DNA of 32,422 nucleotides from a virus, in IMG/VR virus record IMGVR_UViG_3300036770_000539, positions 1-32,422 of that record; one strand, written 5' to 3'. The notes beneath the pieces are model-generated. The model saw only the letters and a program-made list of their open reading frames with translations. It was not told the DNA's origin and searched no databases. The translations under genes were made by a program, and so were the position numbers. How positions within the stretch are numbered: the first letter of the stretch is position 1; every line of letters begins with the position of its first letter. Below, piece by piece: positions 2,230-16,297 of this stretch.

Positions 2230-4000
2230 TGATTTTTCTTCTTAATAATTGTGATTTCCAAATGTGTCTGCAGTAAGGTACGTGAATAGCAGGAGAAGAG
2301 CCTTTTACTGTCATCCAACCGCCTCTTCTTTCCCAAGCTGAATAACCAGGCTCATTATATTCTGCAGCCAAAATAGAACTGATTTGGTCGATGTCCTCTC
2401 TTGAATAAACTCTATTCAATGAAATTAATCTTCTGCAAAAATCTCTTGAAGTAGGAATAATTTCAGAGCCGCTTATTCCAGGTGCTTTTTCGTAGGTATA
2501 ACGCACTACAAGTTCAGTTCCTAAGCCTGAATCAACAAGCGTCTTAGTTCCTTGCTCTGTTACGTTTAAAATGTTATCTGCTGAGGTGATTAAGCCGTCA
2601 TTGATAAGTTTGGTTACTGCCTCCGCTACTTTGTCAGCATCTTGCTTAATGTTGTTCGCAAGGTCTTGAAGTGTTAACTCTGTGTTTCCGTTCAGAAACT
2701 GCAGAATGATAAGTTCAAGAGCAGAGGCAAAATCAAAAGGGACTTTTTCAAACTTAGAAGCTAATTCACCGAATTGCTCAAATACTGCAAGGTCTTTGTC
2801 GTCATCCCAGCCGAAAGGATTGTGATTGCAATTAGAATGTGAAGACATTGCAACGGTGTCACTCATGCCTAATTCTCTTCGTGCTTCAGCTTGTGAGATA
2901 ATGCCTTTCTCAAATAGTTCAACATAGTTCAAACCGATAGGAGGCTTATTTTTACTTTTTAGGGTTACAGGCACAATAAACTTAAAAATAGAAGTCAACG
3001 CTCTATCCATTTGAGTCTGACGTGGTTCAATGTATGCAGTTTGGAAAGCCTCGTAAGCCTCAATTAGTTCTGAACGTCCACCAAGTTGCCCTTCTGTTTT
3101 GATACCAAACAACATCGGAGAGGTTACACGATGAGCCATCAATATTTCCTGCTGAACTGTTTGGTTTAATAGGTCAAACTGCTTGTCGAAATCAGATGGT
3201 GCTAAGTTATTGACAACTGACGGAGTTTCGTTTGGATCGTTAAACTGAATGATTATAGAACCTGCATTATCTGTGCCGCTAAAGTTTTCTTTGAAACGCT
3301 TAATAGTCTGTCTCATCTCTTCAGGTGTAGGAACGCCTTTGAAGAGTTGTAAGAGAGTTTGTGCAGAGAAACCACTCTTTATACTATTAAGGTGGAAATT
3401 TGCAATCTCAGTGTCTATTTCGATGTATTTTAAAGCACTTTGATAAGGTGCAGTAGGATATTCCCCTTGACCTGCTTTGTACATTTTAAAATAGTACAAC
3501 TGCTTATTCTCACGGGTAATGGGATTCCAGCAATAATAATAAATAGGATCTAACTTTCTATCGCTCCAATCTTCAGCGTACCAATAGTGACCGTCAAGAG
3601 AAATACGGACATTTTGAAATGGCAAGTGATAAATCTCAGCTATGGAGGTTTTCGCCTTATTCCAAATAATCTCCAATGCAAATCCATCAAATAGTTCAAG
3701 GTCAGCAGCAATCTTGCTTTTAACGTCATCAAATGACTCGTAAGAGTTAATAGAAGCAAGTCTATCCTTTGCAATGGTTAGTTGCTCTGTGTTGTTGGCT
3801 ATAACCTCAGTTTTGTCACCTGCTATATATTGAGCCTTTTGACTTACGATTGCTCCGTGTTTAGGAGAAGAGTTGTAAAGGTCAATTAACATCTGTGGGT
3901 ACTTGTTATCAGTACCGTATGTGATATAGTTCTTTGCCTTATTTTCTTTGAAAACAGGTATCTTGCTTTCGGCAAAGTTTATTCTTGCAAATTCTGTCAT
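2222..4000 (-). CDS. Portal protein with C-terminal winged-helix and MuF-like domain
   Basis: A 592-residue protein. The first ~410 residues have the character of a phage portal: SPKHGAIVSQKAQYIAGD near the N-terminus, a 'HLPFQNVRI' strand, and the QEILMAHRV / SELIEAYEAFQTAYIEPRQ helices of the stem region. Residues ~430-490 look like a winged-helix domain (LTLQDLANNIKQDADKVAEAV). The last ~90 residues carry SRDFCRRL, YSREDI, W-E-R-R-G-G-W and PYCRHIW, the Cys/His pattern found at the C-terminus of Mu gpF-like minor head proteins. Portal genes are usually separate from gpF genes, so this appears to be a fusion. The gene starts in an ATGA overlap with the small basic gene before it. Confidence 0.85.
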   Translation of the reverse strand: MTEFARINFAESKIPVFKENKAKNYITYGTDNKYPQMLIDLYNSSPKHGAIVSQKAQYIAGDKTEVIANNTEQLTIAKDRLASINSYESFDDVKSKIAADLELFDGFALEIIWNKAKTSIAEIYHLPFQNVRISLDGHYWYAEDWSDRKLDPIYYYCWNPITRENKQLYYFKMYKAGQGEYPTAPYQSALKYIEIDTEIANFHLNSIKSGFSAQTLLQLFKGVPTPEEMRQTIKRFKENFSGTDNAGSIIIQFNDPNETPSVVNNLAPSDFDKQFDLLNQTVQQEILMAHRVTSPMLFGIKTEGQLGGRSELIEAYEAFQTAYIEPRQTQMDRALTSIFKFIVPVTLKSKNKPPIGLNYVELFEKGIISQAEARRELGMSDTVAMSSHSNCNHNPFGWDDDKDLAVFEQFGELASKFEKVPFDFASALELIILQFLNGNTELTLQDLANNIKQDADKVAEAVTKLINDGLITSADNILNVTEQGTKTLVDSGLGTELVVRYTYEKAPGISGSEIIPTSRDFCRRLISLNRVYSREDIDQISSILAAEYNEPGYSAWERRGGWMTVKGSSPAIHVPYCRHIWKSQLLRRKING

Positions 4001-15914: not shown

Positions 15915-15943
15915 TTTCAAGACAAAATGACCCAAATCAATCG

Positions 15944-16014
15944 TTGCCCCGTGAGGACTCGAACCTCAACGCTCTCAGTCAAAGTGAGATGAACTTCCAT
16001 TATTCTACAGGGCA
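15944..16014 (-). tRNA. tRNA-Gln (anticodon TTG)
   Basis: On the minus strand: acceptor TGCCCTG pairs with CGGGGCA (one G-U), then T8-A9, and a short D arm with the usual AATGG in its loop. The anticodon stem TCTCA/TGAGA closes the loop CTTTGAC with anticodon TTG. A 4-base variable loop and T stem TGAGG/CCTCA with loop TTCGAGT follow. The discriminator base is A and no CCA is encoded. The D stem is weak (three clear pairs). The gene begins at the base after a 26-bp repeat shared with the neighbouring tRNA-like gene. Confidence 0.93.
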
Positions 16015-16040
16015 ATGTTGCTCGTCTTTCCGAGCCGTCA
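16015..16040 (-). repeat. 26-bp hairpin leader repeat, copy next to tRNA-Gln
   Basis: These 26 bases are identical to 16272-16297. On the minus strand they contain the hairpin GCTCG-GAAAGA-CGAGC and end CAACAT exactly at the 5' end of the tRNA. The matching position in both copies suggests a processing or recognition element for the tRNA 5' end. Confidence 0.9.
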
Positions 16041-16128: not shown

Positions 16129-16271
16129 TAGTCAGGACAGGACTCGAACCTGTAATTATGTTTCAAAGCCCGAGTCCAAAACATAAATATTGTGTTGAGG
16201 TATTGATCTTCATCGGTCATTCTACCAACCCTCTCTACCACACTTGCGTCTACCAATTCCGCCACCTGACT
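16129..16271 (-). tRNA. Expanded tRNA-Leu-like RNA gene (143 nt, no normal anticodon arm)
   Basis: The ends are those of a tRNA of the Leu type: a perfect 7-bp acceptor (AGTCAGG/CCTGACT), a D arm (GCGGAATTGGTAGACGC) and a T arm (ACAGG-TTCGAGT-CCTGT), with discriminator A. Between D and T arms are 92 bases (16154-16245) instead of about 32. I find no 5-bp stem with a 7-base anticodon loop. The insert has its own structure: GTGT/ACAC (16240-16243 with 16192-16195) around a region with internal hairpins, then an 8-bp perfect stem (16156-16163 with 16179-16186) with a 15-base loop. It could be a decayed tRNA-Leu, a tRNA with an atypical small insertion, or a tRNA-like RNA with another role. Confidence 0.7.
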
Positions 16272-16297
16272 ATGTTGCTCGTCTTTCCGAGCCGTCA
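16272..16297 (-). repeat. 26-bp hairpin leader repeat, copy next to tRNA-Leu-like gene
   Basis: Second copy of the 26-bp direct repeat. As in the other copy, the CAACAT end abuts the first base of the tRNA acceptor (here AGTCAGG). The conserved 5-bp stem GCTCG/CGAGC and GAAAGA loop are intact in both. Confidence 0.9.

Follow-up and report, generated by a model that had tools for sequence, protein, structure and literature searches.

A tRNA-Leu-like phage gene without an anticodon arm, probably a member of a class of non-decoding RNAs with exchangeable interiors

What is encoded by a gene that has the acceptor stem, D arm and T arm of tRNA-Leu and no anticodon arm? Such a gene lies on the minus strand of the 32,422-nt stretch of viral DNA analysed here (the window), which is the record of a 32.4-kb phage with terminase, portal and DnaB genes. 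The original prediction for this locus described a perfect 7-bp acceptor stem, D and T arms and a 92-base region between them, all of which holds on the minus strand. Read from 5' to 3', the gene consists of AGTCAGG, TG, GCGGAATTGGTAGACGC, 92 nt, ACAGGTTCGAGTCCTGT, CCTGACT and A. The features of the gene and its surroundings are given below; the gene as a whole, its D and T arms, the 3' strand of the acceptor stem and the discriminator are read directly from the sequence.

16129..16271, minus strand: tRNA-like RNA gene, 143 nt including the discriminator A, also present in L309, L514, L515 and L516
16265..16271, minus strand: 5' strand of the acceptor stem, AGTCAGG, paired 7/7 with 16130-16136
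16246..16262, minus strand: D arm of the tRNA-Leu type, GCGGAATTGGTAGACGC
16154..16245, minus strand: interior of 92 nt, in place of the anticodon and variable arms
16192..16243, minus strand: 52-nt hairpin arm at the anticodon position, base GUGU/ACAC, predicted from the MFE fold of relatives
16156..16186, minus strand: predicted variable arm with 8 Watson-Crick pairs (12 when extended) and the loop CUCGGGC
16137..16153, minus strand: T arm, ACAGG-TTCGAGT-CCTGT, 5 bp (ACAGGTTCGAGTCCTGT)
16130..16136, minus strand: 3' strand of the acceptor stem, CCTGACT
16129, minus strand: discriminator A73, CCA not encoded
16272..16297, minus strand: leader TGACGGCTCGGAAAGACGAGCAACAT with a hairpin, directly upstream of the tRNA-like gene
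15943..16014, minus strand: ordinary tRNA-Gln (TTG), called by ARAGORN and Rfam
16015..16040, minus strand: the leader again, identical in sequence, here upstream of tRNA-Gln

The tRNA-Leu features of the gene are the 7-bp acceptor stem, the D arm, which together with the preceding T and G forms the same anchor as in canonical tRNA-Leu, and the 5-bp T arm with its T loop, all pairs being present. The third acceptor pair is U3-A70 by sequence. The gene is ~58 nt longer than tRNA-Leu, close to the 60 extra bases that had been estimated, and the absence of an anticodon arm is borne out: the interior contains no direct 5-bp/7-nt anticodon arm with U33 and a leucine anticodon. When the window was searched with ARAGORN, as had been proposed, and with Rfam, the neighbouring tRNA-Gln is called, and the 143-nt gene is not.

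The whole RNA folds better than its dinucleotide shuffles (z = -2.9; 1/200 as good). Its interior forms nested arms without a pseudoknot, in a two-helix arrangement that ~1.6% of shuffles reach (p about 0.016). The 8-bp stem reported at 16156-16186 is present as a 31-nt hairpin with 8 Watson-Crick pairs, or 12 once G-U pairs are added. The MFE structures of L309, L514 and L515 consist of the acceptor stem, the D arm, a long hairpin at the anticodon position, a 12-bp variable arm and the T arm, and the window copy adopts this five-armed structure once the shell is imposed. Comparison with relatives, a further check suggested at the outset, thus gives a five-armed fold in three of them, with an interior conserved at ~98%. 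When the window copy is folded free, GGACTCG pairs with its own T arm, and this fold is favoured by 4 kcal/mol. The complementarity of GGACTCG to CGAGTCC noted in the original prediction therefore exists in the window copy, but it is not kept, because this position reads CGAATCC or CAAATCC in relatives that share the interior, and the alternative fold is impossible in them owing to their different T loops. A switch based on this pairing is accordingly rejected. The window fold has no covariation support, because the relatives are ~98% identical and a divergent homologue of the interior is lacking, so that the structure of this interior is to be taken as a prediction from folding.

In the window, each of the two tRNA genes begins immediately after a copy of the 26-nt leader, which contains the hairpin GCTCG-GAAAGA-CGAGC and has no Rfam match there. 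The hairpin recurs in viral contigs, in at least 119 stretches (L083-L200), its stem varying with compensation (GCCCG/CGGGC, CCTCG/CGAGG), and it precedes tRNAs, tRNA-like genes and protein genes, with a near match in Vibrio phages. It is rejected as a specific partner of the tRNA-like RNA, because it also lies 5' of ordinary tRNAs and protein genes.

The interior of the window gene is conserved in several contexts. Of the four records returned by a scan for it, two are contigs that the set already contains as L033 and L023. Among the other records that carry the gene, L516 has the sequence of L309, and the flanks of L514 differ from those of the window, L514 being otherwise a different phage, which indicates that the gene moves between phages. 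The site itself was compared at 55 loci that encode terminase relatives together with both flanking genes. A Leu-like gene is present at four of them and another tRNA only at three, and 48 are called empty, including a few with long intervals (e.g. 1296 bp in L032). L020 has the same leader as the window, its upstream flank is 97% identical and its D and T arms hardly differ, but its interior of 82 nt is unrelated. L033 has the interior of the window (90/92, 98%) together with the spacer of L020 (43/44), which is unrelated to the window spacer, and L162 has the spacer, leader and tRNA-Gln of the L020/L033 type with a third interior. The T arm, spacer, leader and tRNA-Gln of L020, L033 and L162 are 95-100% alike and their interiors differ, those of L033 and L020 being unrelated. 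This combination of the same ends with different interiors at one site, in these three and in the window, indicates that recombination swaps the interior and leaves the ends as they are. The YqaJ recombinase and HNH endonucleases encoded by the window phage are compatible with such an exchange, and are not evidence of its mechanism.

Viral contigs were scanned with two patterns, one for the 3' end of such genes, with T arm and acceptor, and one for their 5' start, with acceptor and D arm. With fusions removed, these scans yield at least 314 elements, mostly with the acceptor AGTCAGG, with a median length of 106 nt (range 69-191). Clustering of the interiors in a set of 320 sequences gives about 230 components among the matches listed, mostly singletons; the tRNA core nucleotides are kept across the set, and the interiors are mutually unrelated. 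Among the loci listed, 64 of 207 carry two or more elements, with a maximum of nine, and in mapped arrays the elements are interspersed with ordinary tRNA genes. Because these elements are found through their acceptor and T arm, their pairing is in part a product of selection, an effect limited by a control with foreign acceptors, in which a T arm and acceptor are found in 3.7%. Among 84,980 collected genomes, no more than 6 contigs, each from a metagenome-assembled genome, contain an exact match to the AGTCAGG T-arm/acceptor end, and a host origin of the shell is rejected on this basis. Several elements depart from the common plan. L093 7081, L097 259, L238, L392 and L393 have an extra stretch in the D loop, often a hairpin (e.g. 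GGTTAGGGATGTCCCTGACGT), and the interior of a 184-nt element in L448 seems to include part of another tRNA, with a second T arm. A match to the freshwater-1 RNA family (RF02979), near threshold (70/72 bits), lies at 8501-8562 of L379, minus strand, within an array of tRNA and tRNA-like genes. L409, L417, L424, L428, L431, L435 and others contain only the 5' half of tRNA-Leu (GCGGATG TGGCGGAATTGGTAGACGCGCTAGTTTCAGGT...) and continue with unrelated sequence, an arrangement that resembles an attachment site.

Since the first scans selected one acceptor, the search was repeated with the Leu D arm only. It yields 82 distinct complete genes, 58 of which are canonical tRNA-Leu genes (80-86 nt, plus one of 110 nt; leucine anticodon in 57) and 24 of which, at 94-224 nt, are odd genes that lack a canonical anticodon arm. 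The odd genes form a separate size population and not a tail of ordinary tRNA-Leu. Their 17 distinct acceptors are paired at 7.00/7, as compared with a mean of 3.87 (maximum 4.88) for shuffled partners, and their T stems are paired at 5/5. A73 is found in all 58 canonical genes and in 17 of the 24 odd genes, being relaxed in the other seven.

The tRNA core was tallied with one representative per interior family (n=229). U8 is kept in 225 of them, the GG of the D-loop zone in 220, and a T immediately 5' of the T stem, corresponding to U48 of the Leu-type core, in 196; a T loop of the TTCRANN type is nearly universal. A 5-bp/7-nt arm with U33 is possible in 19 of 206 AGTCAGG-type elements with a Leu D arm, as compared with 5.6% of shuffled interiors. 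ARAGORN assigns varied anticodons to 62 elements, and the loops inspected by eye rarely have tRNA geometry. The shorter elements of L230, L211, L251 and L209 have 8-nt loops at the anticodon position (TAATGAAT, TTAGTAAT, TTCAAGGT), as in tRNAs with four-base anticodons. In exploratory alignments, interior families A, C, E, H, I and J have 5-10 compensatory pairs each. Some interiors, e.g. those of L213, L287 and L030/L331, have H-type pseudoknots located just 3' of the D arm and just 5' of the T arm, and others have nested arms. In each fold class, pseudoknot or nested, about one-fifth of the families reach p <= 0.05, as compared with 5% expected. Canonical tRNA-Leu genes reach this level at 95% with nested arms and at 19% in the pseudoknot test, so that the latter test is weak alone. 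Taken together, the interiors of all families are modestly more structured than shuffles, and no more. One pseudoknot common to all interiors is rejected, because only about one-fifth beat shuffles, others are better described by nested arms, and the window interior is nested too.

When deposited phages were searched with the D arm, unannotated complete genes of the same design are found in cultured phages. The window type is present in Bacteroides phages BS-TP2 and BF1-TP2 and in Flavobacterium phage FL-1. A second type, also unannotated (L517-L532), is found in Firmicutes phages, namely Bacillus phages SPP1 (between genes 9 and 11; X89721, about 3423-3532), phi3T and KLEB27-1, Lactobacillus phages phiJL-1 and Lenus, Weissella phage WC29P3, Listeria phage B025, Brochothrix phage BtpYZU01, Enterococcus phages VEsP-1 and EFDG1, and Leuconostoc phages Ln-9 and phiLM33. 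Its T stem is 6 bp long, the acceptor-T domain being 7+6 bp, and its T loop reads TGCAAAT (G at 55). Ten genes of this type that were tested have nine distinct acceptors, paired at a mean of 6.9/7. The Firmicutes D arm matches 79 deposited records at E up to 1, some of which are ordinary tRNA-Leu genes, the complete gene having been checked in a minority. The element of VEsP-1 (39 kb) is shared with EFDG1 (148 kb, Herelleviridae) at 201 of 204 nt, so that, by sequence comparison, two Enterococcus phages of unlike size and type have one element in common. In Listeria phage B025 (L520), the tRNA-like gene is flanked by an rliG/rli62-like RNA (below threshold) and an mcrA RNA (352-589, 875-925).

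A gene of this kind could be a dead tRNA-Leu, the arms of which were destroyed by insertion or drift and the ends of which survive by chance or gene conversion. It agrees with this possibility that ARAGORN and Rfam do not call the gene, and that most close relatives lack it, only the four Leu-like genes being present at the 55 loci. However, the 143-nt gene is ~98% conserved in other contexts, including a different phage, the 17 different odd acceptors of the acceptor-blind sample are all fully paired, which decay would have abolished, and the odd genes form a size population of their own. Random changes in the acceptor and T stem of relatives, by which the original prediction would have recognized a dead gene, are not seen; these stems stay paired over many acceptor sequences, and neither unpaired changes nor a loss of conservation, as expected for a pseudogene, is found in the window gene. 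Decay, one of the three options first considered, is therefore very unlikely. A decoding tRNA with a removable insertion or intron, the mature form of which has an ordinary anticodon arm, is most unlikely. The D arm, A73 and the overall class are those of tRNA-Leu, and group I introns in tRNA-Leu(UAA) occur in bacteria. However, excision of any one segment from the 92-nt interior fails to create an arm with U33, a purine at 37 and a leucine anticodon, although 15% of shuffled interiors give such an arm, no Rfam intron family is found at E up to 1, and related elements have no common exon-like interior ends. A group I intron core in an anticodon loop is likewise not found, the interior being 92 nt long, with no intron family match and no anticodon exons. 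An unknown insertion, in its simple form, is thus disfavoured, and the normal anticodon that a better alignment might have revealed appears neither directly nor after removal of one segment. The third option, a repurposed tRNA-like RNA, is supported.

If the RNA is a non-decoding mimic, its use may be translational or metabolic, as a substrate charged by LeuRS that is a sink for leucyl-RNA, a donor of it, or a regulator. The host LeuRS is not known to read the anticodon, and the Leu-type D loop, the dominance of A73 (17/24 odd, 58/58 canonical) and the U48 kept before the T stem in most families are in favour of such a use. We nevertheless consider it unlikely, because A73 is relaxed in 7/24 odd genes and because the extreme variety of the interiors and their exchange point to the interior as the functional part. 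It is quite unlikely that the interior acts by base pairing, as an antisense or regulatory RNA, on mRNAs of the phage or the host, with the tRNA shell providing stability. The shell would supply maturation and stability, but the longest antisense match between the window interior and the phage genome has 13 nt, as compared with a mean of 11.2 and a maximum of 15 for shuffles, and the compensatory pairing in interior families points to a structured RNA and not to free sequence. An antisense action within the phage genome, for which there is no excess over shuffles, is rejected. A small protein from the interior ORF (MTDEDQYLNTIF...) is rejected too, because neither PHROG nor tblastn against phages gives a match for it and the frame ends differently in L309. 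A known RNA family is also rejected: Rfam gives the generic tRNA model only, plus unrelated neighbours, and no Rfam 15 family covers the interiors tested.

The window gene thus probably encodes a non-decoding tRNA-like phage RNA, in which a constant shell surrounds a structured interior that varies by phage and is swapped by recombination. The class itself, of functional non-decoding RNAs with a tRNA shell, very probably exists, judging from sequence comparison. The shell, the absence of a usable anticodon arm, acceptor covariation, compensatory interior families, exchange at one site and occurrence in cultured phages are all seen at the level of sequence. The window gene shares the paired acceptor and T arm, the D arm, the core nucleotides, the absence of an anticodon arm and an unrelated interior, its structure being that given by folding. 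To judge from the shell, the gene would be transcribed together with the neighbouring tRNA genes, and the transcript would be cut by RNase P and 3' tRNA enzymes and then receive CCA, such that the mature RNA would fold with an L-shaped core. In the window copy, the 52-nt hairpin arm would stand for the anticodon arm and the 31-nt hairpin would be the variable arm. The shell may provide stability or bind a tRNA-handling protein, and the interior may bind or mislead a fast-evolving partner. A fast-changing partner is likeliest because the interior differs between close relatives, transfers whole and is absent from most relatives. We tentatively suggest, at somewhat less than even odds, that the shell stabilises the RNA or binds a tRNA-handling protein and that the interior binds or misleads a host defence factor, such as a tRNA-targeting nuclease, or a competing phage. 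With nearly even confidence, it may be proposed more broadly that phages of Bacteroidota and Firmicutes have a separate class of tRNA mimics, in which a constant shell processed by the host displays a hypervariable, swapped RNA module, a counterpart of exchangeable counter-defence or competition modules that was overlooked even in SPP1 and phi3T. If so, annotation pipelines overlook a widespread RNA class or mislabel its members as undetermined or wrong tRNAs, a non-decoding use is added for phage 'tRNA' genes, the purpose of which is a long-standing question, and the tRNA-scaffold principle has a natural instance. The class is directly testable, because SPP1 and phi3T infect laboratory strains of Bacillus subtilis. 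Within the searchable literature it is apparently undescribed: no description of such RNAs is found in the open-access papers searched.

Among known RNAs, tmRNA has a tRNA-like domain and a large structured insert that replaces the anticodon arm. The class described here shares this plan, but it lacks the G3-U70 pair and is much shorter; at E up to 1 the tmRNA model matches nothing in the window, and SPP1 scores 13.8 bits against a cut-off of 47. Bacterial Y RNAs of the YrlA type, known in some phages, are likewise non-coding RNAs with a tRNA-mimicking module. This module is internal in Y RNAs, the ends of which form the Ro-binding stem, whereas the ends of the window RNA form an acceptor stem, and a Y RNA match is not found by Rfam in the window. 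Allo-tRNAs and other non-canonical tRNAs keep the anticodon arm and decode, and a review of them does not mention phages (PMC7609411). An unusual architecture is common to them and the present class, and the 7+6 = 13 bp of the Firmicutes phage type resembles tRNA-Sec, but the present class does not have the arm with which these RNAs decode. For phage tRNA genes, a role against host tRNA nucleases has been proposed or demonstrated, in which the tRNA is a cleavage-resistant substitute, a supplement or a possible decoy (PMC10264068; PMC11555353; PMC13096335). These defence-evading tRNAs decode and have changes in the anticodon or variable loop, whereas the anticodon arm is absent here; replacement of a depleted tRNA is therefore impossible, and the roles of decoy, inhibitor or scaffold remain. 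The closest likeness is to canonical phage tRNA-Leu, with which the class shares the 7-bp acceptor stem, the D arm GCG GAATTGGTAGA CGC, the 5-bp T arm with a TTCRANN loop, A73 and U48, and alongside which its members often lie in one tRNA array. A tRNA shell as such is familiar, and its pairing with exchangeable interiors is unmatched by tRNA, tmRNA, Y RNA or intron-containing tRNA. Compared with canonical tRNA-Leu, the RNAs would form a new class without an anticodon arm, in which the interior is 92 nt long in the window instead of ~32 nt, and in which one shell is combined with many unrelated interiors.
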